From: Calocera cornea HHB12733
Lineage: Eukaryota > Basidiomycota > Dacrymycetes > Dacrymycetales > Dacrymycetaceae
Reading direction: 5' to 3'
Length of the DNA stretch: 64,000 nt
Assembly (NCBI GenBank): GCA_001632435.1
Contig: KV423918.1
Location: 248,001 to 312,000 of the forward strand
Part shown: positions 1 to 9,541 of the stretch, piece after piece
How positions within the stretch are numbered: the stretch's first letter is position 1
Layout of the letters: every line of letters starts with the position of its first letter
Notes under the pieces: model-generated
What the model saw: only the letters and a program-made list of their open reading frames with translations
Told to the model about the DNA's origin: nothing
Database searches by the model: none
Translations under genes and position numbers: made by a program

Positions 1-2486
1 TTGTGTGTCGCAAGCGAGGGCAGAGGTGTGCTTGAGGGCGTACTCTCCTCATCCGATACGACAATTGGCTGGTCATTGCTGGAGCCCCGAAGTGGCTTCA
101 AGTCGAATGCAATGCAGAATTTATTGCACTTGTGCAACAATGGAAACTCTTCAAAGAGCGAACCGATGTTCCCATCTGCAAAGATTTGCCCAAGGTCCGG
201 ATGTGTGAGGATTTGTGGGTCGGACAGCATCGTAAAGGAACCTAGAGACTTGCTGAGCACGACCACTAGCTATCGCGTATGTTGGTCATGCTTACCTTGA
301 TAATCAGACACGATTGCCTGCCCATCTGTTTTGTCCCATTGCGCATGCTGGCAGTATGACAGGAAGTCCGCCACATCTCTTGCTGGCCCATCCTTGACCA
401 GCGGCACTGGCGAAGCATTTGAGATATACTTCACCCAACTCTTCTGCTTGCCCTTCGATGTGACAACCAGTGTTGGGCCAGTAGCCAGTTCTTCAAGGAG
501 AACAACACGACCACGAAGATGTGCAGGACTGGTCTCATCAAACCGAAACAGACCAACATGGACCATTCGCGTTTCCGGAATCTGCAGCTTGCTTGCAACT
601 GAATCCGGATGCTGGTCAAGATATGCACGCATATGATCGTAAGGGAGCTGATGGAGACTTGCTGCATAGAACGCAACATTCGCTTCCCCTTCAAGAAATG
701 CGGACTCGATCTCCTTTGAAGGTGTAAGGCGCGGACCACCACGTTGTTTGCGGATGAAGTGTCGCTTCAGCACAATTGGCGTACGGCGTGAGACCAGTAT
801 CGGGTGCTCCGTTGGATGGTCGTGCAGCTCATCCCACTGCTTGGGGATCTCAAGCAGAGTAATGCTTGCCAATTCTGCAGTCTTGAAAGCACCGGGCTTG
901 TCGAGCAACTGGTGTTTGTCTTCCTGAATCCGGAGGATAGCCTCGCAGCCATTCGTCTCGTAGTCAAGCTCCAAACGACCAGATCCTTTGACAAGCTCCC
1001 TCCATGGCAGTGGGACAACAGGCAAGAAGATACCGCGAGCGCTTATCATTGTCCCTTTCATATCCATTGTCAGTACATGAATGACGACCAATTATTGGTC
1101 ATGGAACGCACCATTGGAGCCCGACACCTTCTTCAACTCTGACCGGCGGAGTGCATCACCAACAGCATCTCTCCCCAAACTCTCCTCATTCATCGGAGTG
1201 ACCCGCTTGCTTGGGCGCGTTGGCCCATCCTCATCAACCAATGGATGCTGGTCGTCAAATCAGTATCAGCCATGAGATTGCACCGTCCAGACATACCTTG
1301 ACATTGAGCAAGGACATACGACCAGCATCAACTGATCCTCCCCACTCCGGGACCGGAGGAATGGGTCCAGTTGCAAAATTTGGCTGTGAAACCATTGCCT
1401 CAGCTTCAATGTGTGCGCGGGCTGTGCGCTGCCCTCGTGGGATCCCATCAAGCTAAAGGGACATCAGACCACGACCAACAAGTGCTATAGCAGAGCATAA
1501 CACACCGCTTCATCAATCCAGCGCCGATAGACCGGGTAAATCTCTGGCTTGATGAGGAGGAATACTTCTCCACGTTGACCGGGATTGAACACCCGATTGG
1601 TCACTCCATGCTTTGTGACCATCTTGAAACATTGGTCGTACAATGGTGGATCTTCAGGATACCGTTCGAGCTGCACATTACCCGGCCCGCAGAGGGTGAA
1701 GTCATCCTTAGAGTATGGGTACTCCTTTGTGTCGCGCCAAATGTGGGTCGCAAGGCCCTTCATAACCCAGTCCTTCAGTGCATCGGGCTTGAGATGGACA
1801 GGGACATTCTTGAGCGTTTCGGACGTCATCTGTAAGGACTGTCAGCTTTGCAAGCTACTGAGCACGACCAATAAGTGCACGTACCCCCAGCTGTTTTGGC
1901 TTACTTTGCCCTTCAAGAAGATATCGGATTGACGTGTTTACAAACACAACCTCTCCACGACCACCAGCTGCAAGCTTTTTCACCATGTCCCGATGTTGGC
2001 CATATGAAGCATGATTAGGGTTATACCCGAGTGGTTGGGTAGACAGTTCTGTCGTTGCAGGGGCAATGTTGGCGTATGGATTCTGAAGCTGAAGACCAAC
2101 AGCCTGAACAGGGGACTTGCCACCTAATGGTCGTGCACGTTAATGACCAACATAAATGACATGCATTGCCAGGACTCACCCTGGTACACAATTCGTGATG
2201 CATCAATGTTCTGCTGACAGATATCATTGATAAGAGGCGGTGTTGGCACAGGCAGTCGGAAACCCACTTGATCGTCAACAGGAATTGTACGGCGAAGTGT
2301 TCCTTGCTTGTTCTCGTAGTGCTTAAAACATGCAAGGCAAACAATACTGATGCCGAGGATATTGCCATTTGCATCTCGTGGTCGTATCGTCTGGTAGGGC
2401 TCGTTGGCCCTGATCTGAATCTGGCAGCTAGGACGGCTGCACTGCATTGCATTGGGAGCTGTTATCAGAGGCATGATTTCGTCCAT
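1..2486 (-). CDS. alpha-kinase domain protein, C-terminus cut by window start
   Basis: Seven exons are assigned by reading frame and GT-AG sites: 2486-2180, 2123-1885, 1829-1506, 1452-1297, 1247-1112, 1054-296 and 241-1. The start ATG at 2486 opens MDEIMPLITAPN. An N-terminal Cys pair region (CSRPSC, then VCLACF) could bind a metal. The last two exons show the atypical alpha-kinase fold (eEF2K/MHCK type): a VLLEEL strand, SWVKYISN, the SDYQGS loop, a GNIG turn and the terminal zinc motif HKCNKFC followed by DLKPL. These kinases phosphorylate Ser/Thr on protein substrates; the substrate here is unknown. The gene runs divergently from the integrase gene, and every intron carries the TGGTCGT/ACGACCA motif. 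The stop codon lies left of the window. The domain call is firm; the function is not known. Confidence 0.82.
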
Positions 2487-2913
2487 CTTGCACACGACCA
2501 ACACTCGAATCAGAGCCAGAGAGGGTGAGCAAAGCAGAGAGGAAAATTCGGCAGGGGAAAAGGCTGGTCGTCAGATCCCTCAATTGAAAACCCAATCAAA
2601 CTGGAGTGCCGCATTCTAATTTTCCATGGGCTGATCGCCCGCATCCCGTCTCGGATCCTGTCCAGTGGGTGATCGTCTTCGGACAGGTTGAAGGTTCCTT
2701 TTTAAGATCACGACCAGCTGTCCGCTCTTGTGACAAGGGCCTAGACAGCCTGATTTGGGCTATGGGCATCAGATTCCCGCGTTATCTGAACCCTGCCTCA
2801 TGTGAAAACCCTGTCAATCTGAATTGGCCTTGGCTAAACACCGCCTCGATCTGCATGACAACAGGCACACTCTGGTTGTGAATCCCACCGGTTGACAATA
2901 ACTGGCCTGTTCA
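2487..2913. promoter_or_regulatory. divergent gap between alpha-kinase and integrase genes
   Basis: This 427 bp stretch separates the two start codons, which point away from each other, so it should hold both promoters. It contains three isolated motif half-sites near 2492, 2565 and 2710. I see no clear TATA box or coding potential. Confidence 0.5.
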
Positions 2914-4758
2914 ATGATGGAACCGACCAACAAGCAACCTGCACGTCGTCAAAACCAGTGGGCAGAGGCAGGTATGTAGGAATGCATGCATATTGGGAGC
3001 CATAGAATGAGATGCTGATTGTTGGTCGTAGTGCCCGATATCATCCTGAAACCTTTGGTTGAGAAATATTATGGGTATGGCTTTGGCGACAAGAAAATCC
3101 TTGCCGCAATCGTCAAGGAGCTCAATCTGCCAGCAACCAATTGGAGCCTCTCGTGAGCTCTTGATGACCAACATTGACTGGTCGTGCTGCTGACCGAGAA
3201 GGGCAGAACCAAGACCATTCAGCGTCGCCGAAAGACATGGGGGCTCTTGTCTGTAAAGCAGCAGGCACATACACTCGACACTATTGAGCCATATGTAGAA
3301 AAGATTCGGATCCACTCTGCAAATCGGCTGGGTGCAAAGTCGATTCGAGATCATCTGCGGGATGAGAGGATTCTGGTTTCCCGGTACGCCAACCAATACT
3401 TGGTCATGATTGCGCATGTCTGACATAGCTCTAGGCAGTTGGTTCAGGCCTACCAAAGGGAGAACGATTCCACTGGGAATCGGCAGCGAAAGTCGGGTCG
3501 ACTGAAGCGATCAGTCCATTATGCTGCTGGTCCCCATGAACGCTGGTCGGCAGACCAGCATGACAAATGGCAACGCTTTGGGCTATTCCTCCATGTCGGC
3601 CTGGACAACTTCTCAAATGCCGTTCTATGGCTGAAAGTGTGGTGGACGAATTCAAACCCACTTCTTATTGCCAGTTTCTATCTTGATGCCGCTGCCCATC
3701 TCAAAGGTATGCAGATTCTCAGCAGTTCCACGACCAACACTTACTGGTCATAGGCATTCCGTTGATAACTCAAAGCGACCCCGGAACAGAGAATTATGGA
3801 ATAGCGAATGCGCAGACTACTCTTCGTCAGCTACTTGATCCCACACTGGTCGGAACACTCCAGCATCAGTGGATGCGTGGGCATACTAATATCAAGCCTG
3901 AGATCTTTTGGTCGAAACTGAGGAGGCAGTGGTCCGAAGGATGGGAGGCATTATTTCAGGAGGGAATTGACGAGGGATGGTATGATGTGAACATACCAAC
4001 AGAGAAGTGAGTACACGACCATTGGCATTTGGTCGTCCTGAGCTAACCAAGTGCCAGATTTCTGTTTCAATTTCTTGCGATTCCCATGATTCAGGCCGAT
4101 CTTGATCGCTTTGTACGAATACACAACAGCAGCTGTCCACGGAGTGATCGCAGAAAAGCGATGCCAGCTGAAATTCCAAATGTTCTTCTGGAGCGCTCAG
4201 ATGAGTATGGGCCATACTACAATTATAAGGTTGGTCGGTAGTGGATTGGACGTGCTTGGTGGTCATGCTGACCAGTATGCAATAGATTCACATCTCGACT
4301 GAGCAACTGCAGACTGTAAGAGCCTTGTACGCACCTCCCGAACATGATGTCTTCCATATGGTACCCGAGCCAATCTACCCTCGCCTCGAGAACCAATATC
4401 ACAGTATGTTGTGACAGCTAATGGTCGTGCATAAATTACTCACAACACACGACCAGATCTTGGTGATCCCGAGGTTAATCGTGTTACCTTCTGGGCTATC
4501 TATTGCGAGATGCGAGACCTGCTATCAGCAGAAGCCACTGAATGTCAGACCCAGGAAGATGCTCGAAAGGTTGCAGAACAAGATGCCATTGCGCATGCAT
4601 GGTTAGATCTGGTGCCAGGGAAGGAACTTCGAGGAGCGGCAATGATTGGTGCACATGCTGGTCGTGCTTCAGCATCTGAAGAATACGAGAGCGATGAGAT
4701 CTCAGAAGCAGGTAGAAGTGAAGATGTTCCAATTTTTTCGATGACAGCAGCGGAGTGA
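2914..4758 (+). CDS. DDE integrase (fungal integrase core domain)
   Basis: Eight exons give an open frame: 2914-2971, 3032-3152, 3207-3383, 3429-3706, 3754-4006, 4058-4229, 4286-4403 and 4457-4758. The N-terminal part (VEKYYGYGFGDKKIL, later NRLGAKSIRDHL) looks like a helix-turn-helix DNA-binding region. The catalytic core reads as an RNase H-like integrase fold: first Asp in WSADQHDKW, second in TQSDPGTENYG, and a probable Glu in NIKPEIFWSKLRRQW. This matches the fungal integrase core family common in agaricomycetes; it is not the retroviral-type integrase of the Ty3 element downstream. The C-terminus is acidic (SEEYESDEISEAG). No stop or frameshift was seen, so it may be functional. All seven introns carry the block's motif. 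It could be a transposase of an undescribed element or a domesticated gene. Confidence 0.78.
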
Positions 4759-5026
4759 AACTTTGTTGGTCGTGCATCTCTGTTGCTTGCTATGTACTCA
4801 GTGAAATGTCAATACTTATTGAGTTTATATGAGAATGTATGAGTACGACCAATACATGTTGGTCGTACAAGCTTTATATCAATGAGGCAAACAGAGGATG
4901 ACGTTGTGCAAATACGACCAACACTTGTTGGTCATATGAATTTCATTCATCAGTTTCACTAAGAACAGGTAAAAGAAAAAACAATTGCATAGTAAGAAGA
5001 CGGGCGACCAGCGTGTATTGGTCGTC
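4759..5026. repeat. convergent 3' gap with three TGGTCGT inverted repeats
   Basis: Between the integrase stop and the stop of the next, convergent gene lie three hairpin-capable pairs. The pair at 4843-4868 has perfect 10 bp arms (GTACGACCAA and its complement) around a 6 bp spacer. The pair at 4913-4936 has 11 bp arms with one mismatch around 2 bp. The pair at 5004-5026 is looser. They could act as terminators for both genes or be recognition sites of the integrase. Nothing else is visible. Confidence 0.7.
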
Positions 5027-6778
5027 TTACGTCCAGGAGGCGTAGAAATTCCAGTTCTGCGAAGCCGGATCCTCTGGCCGATGTTCCGAAAGCACTTCGC
5101 GCAGAAGTTCCTCACCGCTCTGCACGCGAACGGAGTTCACCATCGTGGTCTGGAAGCTCCGTTGCGCTGCGGCCGACACGATTGCCCTGTGTGCATCCTT
5201 CGCGGCACGGTGCATCTTCACCCACGGAATTTCGAACTCGTCGTATGTACGCCAAAGCTCGTGCATGCCGATGAATTCACTCAGAAATGCTGCCTTGTCT
5301 TGAATGTAATGAATCTCGCGAAGCGGCTGATGGTCGGTAGAGCAGAGGAATTCGAGGAAATCGTCCATTCGCATTGTCTTGCCTTCATCATCTGGACGGG
5401 CAGGCGGATATTCGGGCGGCATGCGACCCTGATACTGGTCGTTAGCTAACCCTAACCCAACGACCAACAGATATTACTTACGACATCAGCGAGCGCGCGC
5501 AAACAGCCTTGATGAACTTGAACACCGAGAACGTTAGAGGCCTCGAGGCACTCATGCAGAAAGGGGAGCGCGAACGGGAGGCCTTCGTTGCGCAAGTAGC
5601 TTCGCAGTCTCGTCCAGCGCGTGTCCCAGTCTTCTCGGTCGTAATCGTCTTCCGTGATGGGTTGCTGTCACGACCATCATCAGTTATGATACATGATGGT
5701 CGTGTGAATGCAGACTTACCGAGTGCGCTGCTCTAAACTCTTCCTGAGCCCCCCAATTCTGCACGCGAATGAGGTTGCGACGACCAGCAAGGATCTCCTT
5801 CAGGGTGCGAACATGGATCCGGCCTGGCGCAAGTCCCAGGAGGGCCATCTTGTGCTGGTCGACAGCCACGTCCCGATAGAAGTTGGCAATCTCTTGGTCG
5901 GTCGGTTTCCAGCGCTTCGCTTGCTTCAAGAACGCCTGCTTGACGGCCTCGCGCTTGTGGAAAAGCTTCCAGAATAGGCGATCGCGCTCCTTGGGATCCC
6001 GAGGGAGTTCCTCCTCCTCGTACGGCGGTGACGGATCACGGGGTTGGCCGGCTTGTCCTTCCTCGTCCGAATCGTCGAGATCGTCCCACCCAATGACCAA
6101 CTGACCGAGATCGCGCCGTTGGTCGTACATGCGTTGAAGCTGCGCTTCATCGGGTGCCTCCCATATGCGGACCATGCCAAATTCGAGCTGAGCACGGACT
6201 GGGAGCCACGTTGGCCCTTGGCCGGGAGGAAAGACGATCGGGGATGCAGGGGCGACAAGCGGCTGGTTCTTGGCAATGCGAATTTCGTAGTGCATCTCGA
6301 GCTCTGTGAACTGTATCAGTAGTTGTTGGTCGTGGGTCAAAGATAGGGCGCACCTCTATAGCCGCAGACCTTGTCTGGCCAGGATGTGCTGTAGCAGCAT
6401 ACTAACGACCAATGTCAGCTACTGGTCATAACGCAGTCAGAGCACAGACTCACCTAGCACGTATCGACCCGGATAGTCTGAGTTCGCAGGAGTGAGCATC
6501 CGCTCGCACGGACGGAAGTGCCAACAGAGCCGGCGAAACTTGTCATCGAGAAAGGCGACCAGTATGATGTGATACTGGGGCCAGGAGCGCCGGTCAGCAA
6601 CAGGGAGGGGCAGTTCGACGCCGTTCTCATCCAACTCGGGGAACAGATCCTTGACGCGGTTCACGACCATATCTCGAGAGCGCAGATACTCGCTGGAGTC
6701 GGCAGGCAGCGTGGGCAAGAACAGTGGCGGCGGCGGGCAAGGCAGTATACGCGGTTTGGAGACACGAGGAGGCATCAC
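5027..6778 (-). CDS. unrecognised protein of the integrase block
   Basis: Five exons are assigned: 6778-6454, 6388-6354, 6310-5720, 5664-5482 and 5428-5027, about 511 residues. I do not recognise a family. The protein starts with a Pro-rich segment (PPRVSKPRILPCPPPP). The middle has an acidic stretch (WDDLDDSDEEG) followed by a charged helical region (KERDRLFWKLFHKREAVKQ); the end is globular in composition and rich in Trp and His. No signal peptide or membrane segment is visible. It lies tail to tail with the integrase gene and all four introns carry the shared motif, which ties the three genes together. Codon use looks intact and there are no stops, so I infer a functional gene, possibly an accessory protein of a mobile element. 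Confidence 0.62.
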
Positions 6779-7615
6779 GACCAGTAAGCAGAAGGCGAGA
6801 GGCTAACAGTTGGTCGTAGGAGAGGATCGTCAATAGATGGCCAGCACGGCGTGCTGGCAAGTCATCCTGACCAGCAGGCAGCGGAGTCTGATCTGACTCC
6901 GTCTGCCTCCGTCCGCTTCGATCTAAACGCCGAAGGGGTCGGACCCCTAAACAGCTGTCCGCAGAAGGCTTCCATACAATCCAATAAGGTTCACCTGCCA
7001 TCGCGGGTTCAGGAGCGCGCAGCGCATGGTCGTTGGCCTTCGTGCTGAACAGAAAGGGTCCATGTCGTTCCTGGTGACACCCCGGACACAGGAGGCAGAA
7101 GACGCTCCACAGAGTTGGGCACGAACAAAGGAAGCGAAGCACCATTCTTCCCTTTCGCGCTTCTTCGGCTCCCCCTCCCCTTCTTGTCTCCGCCGAGATA
7201 AATGCACCCCATTGTCAGCATCTCATCATGATGATCATGATGTGTGCCAGGGTCCAGCCCAGTGATGTGCTGCGCCGGGTTTATATTGAACATCTTGCCA
7301 TCCCGAATGGAGGCTCATCTTGTCGGTGATGATGGGAAACGAGAATGTTCGATCTTTCGATTGCGGCGGCCATTCGTTGAGTAAGTCGATCTGAGAGATA
7401 CCGTCATTCCCATTTGTTTCAGTTGCCAAAGCGGAATGAAGCTGTCAGATACTGTGCGGACTTATCCCATTTTACAAGATGTTTGGCCCCTTTGTATGGC
7501 TCCGGGTCTGCATACTCGCCATCCCATTGAATGTATTCTATGACTCGCAATTCATGAACAGTTGGCAACTTACGTACATTTCGCAATAAGTCCGGAAGGG
7601 GTCTCGCAGGGACAC
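6779..7615. other. gap between accessory block and Ty3 element
   Basis: This non-coding stretch holds a motif pair at 6778-6820, a copy of a dispersed repeat (listed separately) and then about 380 bp in which I see nothing. ACAC at 7612-7615 is the left target duplication of the Ty3 element. Confidence 0.6.
6985..7210 (-). repeat. dispersed repeat, copy 1
   Basis: The complement of this stretch aligns by eye with 41141-41375, sharing long blocks such as GGAGACAAGAAGGG, GAGCCGAAGAAGCGCGAAA, CACCAGGAACGACA and GACCCTTTCTG. A short piece of the same family survives at about 19243-19273. It has no coding potential of its own that I trust. The family is unidentified. Confidence 0.75.
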
Positions 7616-8002
7616 TGTGCTGCTAGAAAGGTAGTAGAGGTTAGTCGCGCTAGCAATGTATTTTCTTTCCTTCTTTCGAATCGACGAATCGACGTTTCGA
7701 ATCGTCGATACGATCGGGTTCGGCGCACGCTGGCCCACGCTGTCTTTGATTCGGGCCTTCGGTATGCCGATTGGGCACAGCCCATAGTATAGAGTCCCTT
7801 CCATACGCCTTCGGGCCCTAATGCGATCTCTTTCCCATTCGACCTCGTTGCTTACTTCGTGCACTCACTGGCCATTCGAGGCCTTGATTCGATATCGATA
7901 TCAGCATATATTACTATCTACTACAACAAATCGACGCTACTATCAATCAGTACCCCTCCCAGCGTCTCGCAGCCTACAGCCCGATATTAGGGTATAGGTA
8001 CA
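7616..8002 (+). repeat. 5' LTR of the Ty3 element
   Basis: 387 bp, TGTGCTGCTAG to GGTACA. It is 13 transitions away from the 3' LTR, all at CpG positions (CG in one copy, TG or CA in the other). The changes fall in both copies. The LTR contains several ATTCGA/TCGAAT words, the CpG-rich context in which most changes lie. Confidence 0.95.
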
Positions 8003-8003
8003 T

Positions 8004-8020
8004 TGGAGCCCAACGCGAGG
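8004..8020 (+). other. probable primer-binding site
   Basis: TGGAGCCCAACGCGAGG begins one base after the LTR. The leading TGG would pair with the CCA end of a tRNA, as is usual for LTR elements. I cannot name the tRNA without a search. Confidence 0.6.
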
Positions 8021-8101
8021 GAATTCTGGTTGGGGTTACTACAGCGAGCGAGCGAAAATTTGTCGGGGTGTCCAGCGACCCGAGACCCAGCAGCAACCGT
8101 G

Positions 8102-9541
8102 ATGCTCCGCAGCGGCAGACCCTTTCGGAGCCAGATACCGACATATCAACCGCGTCGGATAGCGCATTGCCAGGCATCGGATCCGCATCCGCCTCCGCTG
8201 GTTTCAGAAAACTTGCCGAACCCATTGACATCGACGCTCACCTCTCCTCCGAGCTCGACGACCTCTGACCACCTCCTTGACCAACCCGTACCCTCCAACG
8301 TTGACGCATCGTTTCGACCAATATCGCCCAACATGCCGGAATCGATGATGCCGTTGAGGTTGAGTCGAAACGCCCCAGTCTTGGAGTCGGCCCGACCGGA
8401 GCATATCGTTCGATTCTTAGTGGACGTACAGCAGCTATGCGAGGGGCATGAGGTGTTGCCAGAGAAGTGGGTCAATTACAGTTTGAAGTACGTGGATATC
8501 GATGTGGCACAAGTCTGGGAGTCGCTACCTGAATCGAAGGCCGTGCCGACCGATTTCGCGGCATTTCAAAAAGCAGTTCTCAGGCTGTATCCGGGGTCGA
8601 CCAACGATACTAGACGGTATACAAAGACTGACCTCGAAAGGATAGTCAGTAAGAGCGCAGCGATTCCCATGGAGAGCCGGGCCCAATTCGGCGAGTACTA
8701 CCAACAATTCCTCATGATATCGACATGGCTCGAAGAGAAGGGCAAGATATTGACCATGGAACAAGCCCAGCAGTACATGTGAGGCTTCCACTTCGATTTC
8801 CAGGAGAAACTACGGAATCAATTGATGATGAAGCAACCTGATGTTCTACCGGGTGACCCTTACGACATTGAGCATGTTACTGAGGCCGCCGAGTTCCTTC
8901 TGACCAACACCCCTGCGAGCGTCGATTTTGTGCCGTTAAGGCTAGGAACATCGATTCCTACGGCGAAAGTTGAGTCCAAAACAGCGTCGACCAAAGTCGA
9001 GCCCTCCACTTTGATAAAGGTCGAAACGGACTGGTCGATACAGGAGCGCATGTTGGCTCTTCTATCCCGTATCGAATTGAAACTCGATCATCCAGCGCCG
9101 CAGTACGAGAACACTCGAGGTCAGTTTCGGGAGCGCAATGTGCAACCTCAGCAAGGATACAATCAAGGAGGCCAACGAGGCGACAGGAAGCGAGGAGGCG
9201 ATAGCGGCACGAATCACTGCCTCTGGTGCGGAGCGGTAGAGCACTGGGCAAAGGACTGTCGGGACCTCGAAGAACATATTCAGAAAGGACTGGTCATTCG
9301 AAACGCACGACATTGAATTGCGCTACCCAACGGCGACGAGCCACCACAGTACCCGGGTCTATGGATGAAGGACAAGGTCCTCTCTTGGCATCAGCACAAC
9401 CCAAACCAAACGACGGCCGACGTGGAGGCTCGAAATCGAAATGGGAATCGAAACCCTACACCTGTCGATATTATACAGGCATTCTCAGTCGACGATCGAT
9501 TTGACAGCAACATCCTACCCTTTCGAGAGGCCGATGTGTGA
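8102..9541 (+). pseudogene. Ty3 gag with three CGA-to-TGA stops
   Basis: The frame opens at ATG 8102 (MLRSGRPF) and encodes a capsid-like region (RFLVDVQQLCEGHEVLPEKW, later FGEYYQQFL). A Gln/Arg/Gly-rich stretch precedes a CCHC knuckle, CLWCGAVEHWAKDC, near 9220-9262. TGA codons interrupt the same frame at 8780, 9314 and 9539. In each case sequence before and after is continuous in one frame, and reading CGA (Arg) instead of TGA would keep it open. The last stop is the gag-pol boundary I chose; gag and pol may have been one polyprotein. Confidence 0.88.

Follow-up and report, generated by a model that had tools for sequence, protein, structure and literature searches.

A dispersed, subfamily-specific motif in an IS3EU-type transposon of Calocera cornea and its possible element-encoded reader

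DNA transposons of the IS3EU superfamily are, in the available part of their general description, bounded by inverted repeats with TA..TA termini and by 6-bp target site duplications (TSDs) (Kojima and Bao 2023, PMC10045372). The available part of the account of fungal members gives TAYGG..CCRTA termini, a 6-bp duplication, and an integrase-type transposase and an alpha-kinase encoded in opposite orientations; some of them, the rust families, also carry TET/JBP dioxygenase genes and have terminal inverted repeats (TIRs) longer than 30 bp (Kojima 2025, PMC12730594). The subject of this report is an element of this type in the fungus Calocera cornea HHB12733 (assembly GCA_001632435.1), most of which lies at the left edge of the window, that is, the whole 64,000-nucleotide stretch of contig KV423918.1 under analysis (C5:248001-312000 in our numbering of the 32.1-Mb genome of 302 contigs). 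A preliminary description of this DNA had noted one hairpin motif shared by the introns of three neighbouring genes; what is new relative to it is that the three-gene block is a single transposon and that paralogues of this transposon carry different motifs.

The C. cornea element resembles the described IS3EU/GingerRoot elements in its TATGG..CCATA ends, its 6-bp TSD and the placement of its alpha-kinase gene opposite the transposase. It differs from them in possessing a third gene of unassigned family beyond the transposase, and from the rust families both in its TIR of 24 bp and in the mere 427 bp that separate the transposase and alpha-kinase models, which leave no room for a TET/JBP gene. 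A further difference is the dispersed, subfamily-specific motif, which is absent from the examined portions of the published IS3EU descriptions; a literature search, covering few subscription journals and no preprints, met with no account of such motifs for fungal IS3EU elements in the text available to it.

A comparable arrangement is known from Arabidopsis, where, in the available part of the report, VANC proteins bind short motifs that are dense in non-coding DNA, introns included, of the VANDAL subfamily to which each protein belongs, undo silencing, and have targets that form same-orientation tandem arrays (Hosaka 2017, PMC5735166). As far as that part of the report extends, the C. cornea element shares with VANDAL elements a short motif that is dense in introns, intergenic and terminal DNA and that differs between related subfamilies, as well as a gene that evolves faster than the transposase. 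The two belong, however, to different transposon superfamilies and different kingdoms, and the C. cornea sites, known here from sequence alone, are dispersed and form convergent pairs rather than same-orientation tandem arrays. No homology to VANC (DUF1985/DUF287) was detected in the Pfam scan, which was empty for the third protein (E<=0.01) and returned only Alpha_kinase for the alpha-kinase. Ac and En/Spm are likewise DNA transposons with numerous short internal sites in either orientation, in the form of transposase-binding repeats; those sites are subterminal, whereas the ones described here extend across the whole element.

The motif array and the transposon that carries it

Throughout, the strict site is the 7-mer ACGACCA/TGGTCGT and the relaxed site A[CT]GACCA or TGGTC[AG]T, and gene models and splice sites are predictions that are partly backed by deposited proteins. 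With both strands counted, the window contains 55 copies of TGGTCGT where 7.8 are expected; none of 100 shuffles reached 55, and 40 of these 55 sites fall in window 1-6976. The complete element holds 45 strict sites in 7,529 bp, as against 5,373 in the 32.1 Mb of the genome (0.167/kb). Outside it, there is a single strict site in 9.4 kb of left flank and there are 15 in the 57 kb of right flank that make up the rest of the window, a low rate that serves here as a stand-in for the introns of the other named genes with which the preliminary description had compared the block. Once sites with similar flanks or less than 8 bp apart are removed (the flank filter), 40 of the 45 remain, so the sites are not copied repeats.

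Several of the earlier claims are borne out by these counts. Every one of the 17 introns (6 + 7 + 4) contains a relaxed site and 15 contain a strict one, as against 0.8 on average and never more than 4 of 17 when the introns were shuffled 1000 times; apart from the sites the introns look unlike each other; and the sharing of the motif across three genes on both strands is indeed abnormal against the genomic rate. The number of introns holding both orientations, formerly put at 12, falls to 10 of 17 on recount. The rate over the whole genome, 0.167/kb, compares with 21.3/kb in the block introns. Strict sites are also present at 10.3/kb in intergenic DNA and at 2.4/kb in exons, with none in the exons within window 3032-4403. 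Since the motif is dense between genes and raised in exons, its carrier is the whole block and not the intron as such.

That this block is one DNA transposon is almost beyond doubt, and its TIRs, 6-bp TSD and divergent transposase and alpha-kinase genes match it to the fungal IS3EU type. Its principal features are as follows.

C5:247448-254976 (window 1-6976 plus 553 bp upstream, start at L009:9448): IS3EU-type transposon, 7,529 bp, with TIRs and ends TATGGA...TCCATA
C5:247448-247471: left TIR, 24 bp
Window 6953-6976, minus strand: right TIR, 24 bp, TATGGAAGCCTTCTGCGGACAGCT on the minus strand, matching the left TIR at 23/24 positions
Window 6977-6982, with a second copy at L009:9442-9447 just outside the left TIR: target site duplication CAATCC, read directly
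Window 1-2486, minus strand, stop about 180 bp upstream of the window: alpha-kinase-like gene, 780-aa model, 6 introns (2179-2124, 1884-1830, 1505-1453, 1296-1248, 1111-1055, 295-242)
Window 2914-4758, plus strand: integrase/transposase gene, 492-aa model, 7 introns (2972-3031, 3153-3206, 3384-3428, 3707-3753, 4007-4057, 4230-4285, 4404-4456)
Window 5027-6775, minus strand: third gene, CALCODRAFT_505756, deposited as 521 aa, 4 introns (6453-6402, 6353-6304, 5719-5665, 5481-5435)

Both ends follow the pattern TATGGAAGCCTTC[CT]GCGGACAGCT. The duplication was read for this one copy and stands at the edge of a repeat that is also present nearby with no element: from window 6979 the right flank is 81% identical over 241 columns to L009:7693-7927, where the repeat has no element inside, and on the left only a dozen letters beside the duplication (AAAGGTCC[AG]ATCC) resemble the L009 repeat by eye. 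Near this repeat, at L009:7979-8023 (C5:245979-246023), lies a perfect palindrome whose 22-bp arms, ATCCTCGCAACGCACTCGCATT and the complement, enclose one base. On the other side, window 7991-9316 adjoins the element and holds Gag-like reading frames with a CCHC zinc knuckle (CLWCGAVEHWAKDC), judged by eye to be a likely retrotransposon remnant.

The alpha-kinase gene matches Alpha_kinase (PF02816) with 42.9 bits against a cut-off of 21.3, the sole Pfam family returned. Homologues of the integrase are labelled PF24764, and its own exon matches rva_4 at a sub-threshold E=0.0014. The deposited third protein (P0121) is 7 residues longer than our model at the last intron (window 5481-5435), the exact splice junction of which is uncertain, and otherwise agrees with the model.

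Paralogous copies and their motifs

At E<1e-30 the C5 integrase finds matches at 21 further loci (exon matches total 96 when C5 itself and weak ones are counted), and the genome-wide matches to PF24764 number 45, most of them with a weak match or none to the C5 integrase. As judged by matches, the alpha-kinase gene is divergent to the integrase in C43, C142, C82, C13, C26 and C275, and the third gene is convergent to it in C155, C13 and C43, with diverged third-gene matches in the same place in C142 (E=5e-6) and C26 (E=5e-4). Nine of the 22 integrase loci were read, C5 whole and eight partly (4.0 kb of C43, 4.1 kb of C155, and 1.8-2.0 kb around the integrase in the others). Intron-sized gaps occur in these nine paralogous integrases at 52 of 54 homologous positions, those missing being one in C142 and one in C43. 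The deposited C155 integrase, P0001, fits the C155 intron calls up to its tail; in the automatic models of C43 and C155, the exons at the termini are probably spurious and were excluded. In C. viscosa the C5 subfamily has relatives: P0008, an integrase fragment with 84% identity, and P0122, a third protein with about 60%.

Conservation of the ends can be followed only in part across these paralogues. TIRs similar to those of C5 lie beside C43 (one end) and C142 (both ends), and none of the C5 type was found with <=3 mismatches beside C155 or C13. At the same threshold the genome holds 55 TIR matches, many of them facing pairs 394 bp to 12.3 kb apart. One such pair, C142:62977-75230, spans 12.3 kb and encloses an integrase, an alpha-kinase and a diverged third gene; another, C52:79688-90482, spans 10.8 kb. 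Four short copies of 542-564 bp, with ends 0-3 mismatches from the C5 pattern (C7:265241-265783, C97:70609-71150, C106:2848-3411 and C113:88821-89381), are probably non-autonomous derivatives, and there are further paired-TIR groups of 0.4-2.8 kb.

Several of these paralogues are marked by other words. In C43 the motif is GACCAGTA, of which the 7-mer ACCAGTA occurs 24 times in 4.0 kb (0.30 or 0.78 expected in two counts); in C155 it is GACCAGGA, of which the 7-mer ACCAGGA occurs 26 times in 4.1 kb (0.76 or 1.6 expected in two counts), and C13 is moderately enriched for this same ACCAGGA (9 against 0.9 expected). After the flank filter, log10 P is -41 for the whole of C5, -23.8 for C43 and -22.5 for C155, and the three 1.9-kb slices of C5 score -14, -10.7 and -12.3, as compared with best control values of -5.2 among 30 other integrase loci (3.2-3.6 kb each, in 22 distinct places owing to overlaps), -5.7 among 30 background loci (chosen for holding TGGTCGT and partly overlapping) and -6.2 among 29 slices of the rest of the window. 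The motif of C142 is probably GCCGGC, a word chosen after looking, which has 11 sites against 0.64 expected, a number that none of 200 shuffles reached; a scan allowing one degenerate letter, in which near-palindromic words are counted twice, scores it -10.2 against -7.0 for the best of 30 shuffles.

The same contrast is visible in the integrase introns, where sites of the copy's own motif are found in 6/6 introns of C5, 5/5 of C43, 6/6 of C155 and 4/6 of C13, with six-letter relaxed forms for the last three. Sites of the C155 type occur in none of the 6 C5 introns and none of the 5 C43 introns, and the C155 7-mer is absent altogether from C5 and C43. An element-wide, subfamily-specific non-coding motif is thus the property of C5 and C43, with partial mutual overlap; the motif of C155 and C13 is less specific.

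Among the other integrase loci, candidate motif carriers yielded tandem repeats or weak signals (ACGGTAT in L030, CGCAAGA in L036), none beyond -5.2, and first-look motifs in L026, L028, L041 and L013 were dropped as tandem arrays. L013 and L014 (C34, C94) score equally and belong to a different group of integrase loci; they lie close to the ends of two contigs, with TATCCTAGGATA-type repeats nearby.

Pairing, spacing and conserved positions

The motifs of C5, C43 and C155/C13 all contain ACCA. In C5, pairs of A[CT]GACCA within 40 bp are convergent in 12 cases, divergent in 3 and same-direction in none, and among the 18 convergent GACCA pairs at <=40 bp a gap of 8 bp recurs in 6, which none of 5000 jittered sets reached, although these data had first drawn attention to the 8-bp gap that they were then used to test. 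The ACCA/TGGT pairs of C43 show this gap in 3 of 12 (P=0.003) and those of C155, weakly, in 2 of 18 (P=0.054). Paired sites of C5 include the following.

Window 3164-3185: ATGACCA-N8-TGGTCGT, integrase intron; ACCA/TGG offsets of 14 and 26, shared with the C43 and C155 homologues of this intron
Window 3730-3751: ACGACCA-N8-TGGTCAT, integrase intron
Window 4015-4036: ACGACCA-N8-TGGTCGT, integrase intron
Window 4845-4866: ACGACCA-N8-TGGTCGT, between integrase and third gene
Window 4914-4935: ACGACCA-N8-TGGTCAT, between integrase and third gene
Window 5005-5025: CGACCA-N8-TGGTCGT, between integrase and third gene
Window 5670-5703: ACGACCA-N20-TGGTCGT, third-gene intron
Window 6777-6817: ACGACCA-N27-TGGTCGT, immediately upstream of the third gene; of all pairs the closest to the right end

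Some sites retain their place in homologous introns while their letters differ. In integrase intron A, counted from the 5' splice site, C5, C43 and C155 have ACCA at 14 and TGG at 26, and C13 has only the ACCA at 14; in intron F, C5 and C43 share a TGGT at 18 with an ACCA at 48, and C155 and C13 share a TGGT at 10 with an ACCA at 27. Exact offsets with changed letters are thereby kept in 2 of the 6 homologous integrase introns, and the other four do not keep them.

Exact convergent pairs of the C43 type exist in 3 places in the genome, all within C43, and those of the C5 type in 8 places, 5 of them within C5. Pairs of ACCAGGA exist in 14 places, a number raised over the reversed control (14 against 3): 3 are on C13, one in the third gene and two beyond the alpha-kinase, where the end of the element is undefined; 3 are in C219, where matches to the alpha-kinase and the third gene are present too; and 8 are elsewhere.

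Candidate readers of the sites

The whole of this pattern is best read, in our judgment and at somewhat better than even chance, as a set of subfamily-specific binding sites that co-evolve with a DNA-binding protein encoded by the element. The 7-mers would be half-sites, with GACCA as their core, of an element-wide array, and the protein would bind pairs of them all over its own element; because convergent half-sites prefer an 8-bp gap, it would probably be a dimer. With several subfamilies each having its own version of the site, such a protein would recognise the element that encodes it and mostly pass over the relatives. We consider it highly probable that the sites act at the DNA level as protein-binding sites, and probable that the reader is encoded by the element itself.

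The first candidate for this reader would be the fast-evolving third gene, because it diverges more quickly than the integrase (31-43% against 56% identity between C5 and C13). This assignment is tentative and slightly short of an even bet, having been lowered because the alpha-kinase proved equally variable, and the alpha-kinase may be an alternative reader. The third gene has at least 4 relatives besides itself, all in Calocera, among the 7,997 candidates with the most shared words that were scored; these relatives bear the precomputed label PF28346, which the Pfam scan did not return. A profile search of the third protein against solved structures gave nothing convincing (best E 0.16). One deposited protein, P0125, consists of a relative of the third gene joined to an aldo/keto reductase and is probably a gene-model fusion. 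As for the use of such a reader, the likeliest would be to cover the DNA of the element itself and maintain its expression in the face of host silencing, in the manner of VANC, an anti-silencing effect that we put forward, by analogy, as a possibility with somewhat less than even chances. It is plausible for the IS3EU superfamily, as other fungal members carry TET/JBP dioxygenase genes.

A number of observations weigh against this account. The 8-bp gap of C43 loses significance when any spacing is allowed to win (P=0.09), C13 has no gap preference among its ACCA/TGGT pairs (1/13, P=0.27), and the genome-wide pair search found no exact convergent ACCAGGA pair in C155 itself. Genome-wide pair counts are not raised over the reversed control for C5 (8 against 23) or C43 (3 against 9), so that for these pairs it is location and not number that is telling. 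Specificity is incomplete: C5 holds 8 copies of the C43 7-mer (0.45 expected), C43 holds 5 of the C5 7-mer (0.47 expected), C155 holds 3 of the C5 (0.51 expected) and 2 of the C43 7-mer (0.29 expected), and relaxed foreign sites occur in introns, those of C5 type in 2/5 of C43 and 3/6 of C155 and those of C43 type in 3/6 of C5. Under the flank filter the C142 score of -4.6 fails and the C13 score of -6.3 barely passes without standing out (best control -6.2). No clear motif was found in the 1.8-1.9 kb read of each of C82, C26, C295 and C275, four of the nine copies, even though C26 has a weak third-gene match beside its integrase. Of the words considered there, TCC[AT]GGA is marginal in C295 (-5.9 against -5.6 for the best of 30 shuffles, with double counting of a palindrome) and does not rise above shuffles in its close relative C275 (-5.1 against -5.7); nor do TGCT[AG]GT/ACTAGC in C26 or the top word of C82. 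As to the reader, the Pfam scan gave the third protein no family at E<=0.01, its predicted structure is uninformative (mean pLDDT 36), and the alpha-kinase, at 45-48% identity between C5 and C43 and 36-48% between C5 and C13, is as variable as the third gene.

The preliminary description had proposed that the neighbouring integrase might read the sites. Its wider idea, that a protein of a mobile element does so, is upheld as possible; the integrase is not favoured for the part. Several transposases bind short repeats near element ends, and the sites could be subterminal repeats that aid assembly of the transposition complex and have spread unusually far inward. A helix-turn-helix-like stretch, seen by eye at the N-terminus of the transposase, would suit this explanation, as would the outermost sites, which lie about 135 bp inside both TIRs, and the lack of a C5-type TIR beside C155 or C13, where ends and motif might have changed together. 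Yet the sites span the whole element, are densest in introns and do not occur in the TIR; STKT[IL]QRRRK, the presumed recognition helix, is near-identical in C5, C43 and C155 while the motif differs; and similar TIRs are kept in C43 and C142. The absence of exact convergent C5-type pairs from the four short copies points the same way, weakly, with only about 1.5 expected in their 2.2 kb at the C5 rate of 5 per 7.5 kb. On balance we hold recognition by the transposase to be rather unlikely.

Splicing hairpins, also proposed earlier, fare less well. Signals in pre-mRNA, whether hairpins or protein sites that aid or regulate splicing, would agree with a density that peaks in introns and with convergent pairs able to form 7-bp stems; but the sites are likewise dense in intergenic DNA and enriched in exons, on either strand, the homologous introns of C82, C26, C295 and C275 keep their positions with no clear motif, and coding constraint alone predicts a lower density in exons. 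A role in RNA is accordingly improbable. Host transcription factors, recruited separately by each subfamily, would equally yield dense sites and differences between subfamilies; that C5, C43 and C155 share the ACCA core, and C5 and C43 the spacing, while differing in flanking letters fits one evolving reader better, and we judge recruitment from the host to be very improbable. The remaining proposal, that introner-type insertion made the introns and that the motif marks the inserted unit, could draw on the presence of the motif in every intron; it is contradicted by the intron positions shared at 52 of 54 places in nine copies whatever their motif, four of them having no clear one, and by introns that are unrelated apart from the sites and a motif that also lies in exons and intergenic DNA. 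An introner origin was rejected and has next to no probability.

Returning to an element-encoded reader, the fuller proposition would be that fungal IS3EU elements independently evolved a VANC-like code, in which a dimeric reader of an undescribed family and dozens of paired sites with a GACCA core shift specificity together, partly in place, and leave sibling elements mutually invisible; this we advance with some reserve, at a little under even chance. VANC and VANDAL are the case found so far of transposon DNA whose private code evolves together with a reader that the element encodes. A further case in fungi, unrelated to that one, would, if true, suggest a general strategy of DNA transposons, provide a family of sequence-specific readers with a simple code for comparison, and help explain how sibling elements separate into families that do not interact. 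Because some sites keep their exact intron position with changed letters, the manner in which dozens of sites follow a change in the specificity of one protein would become testable.

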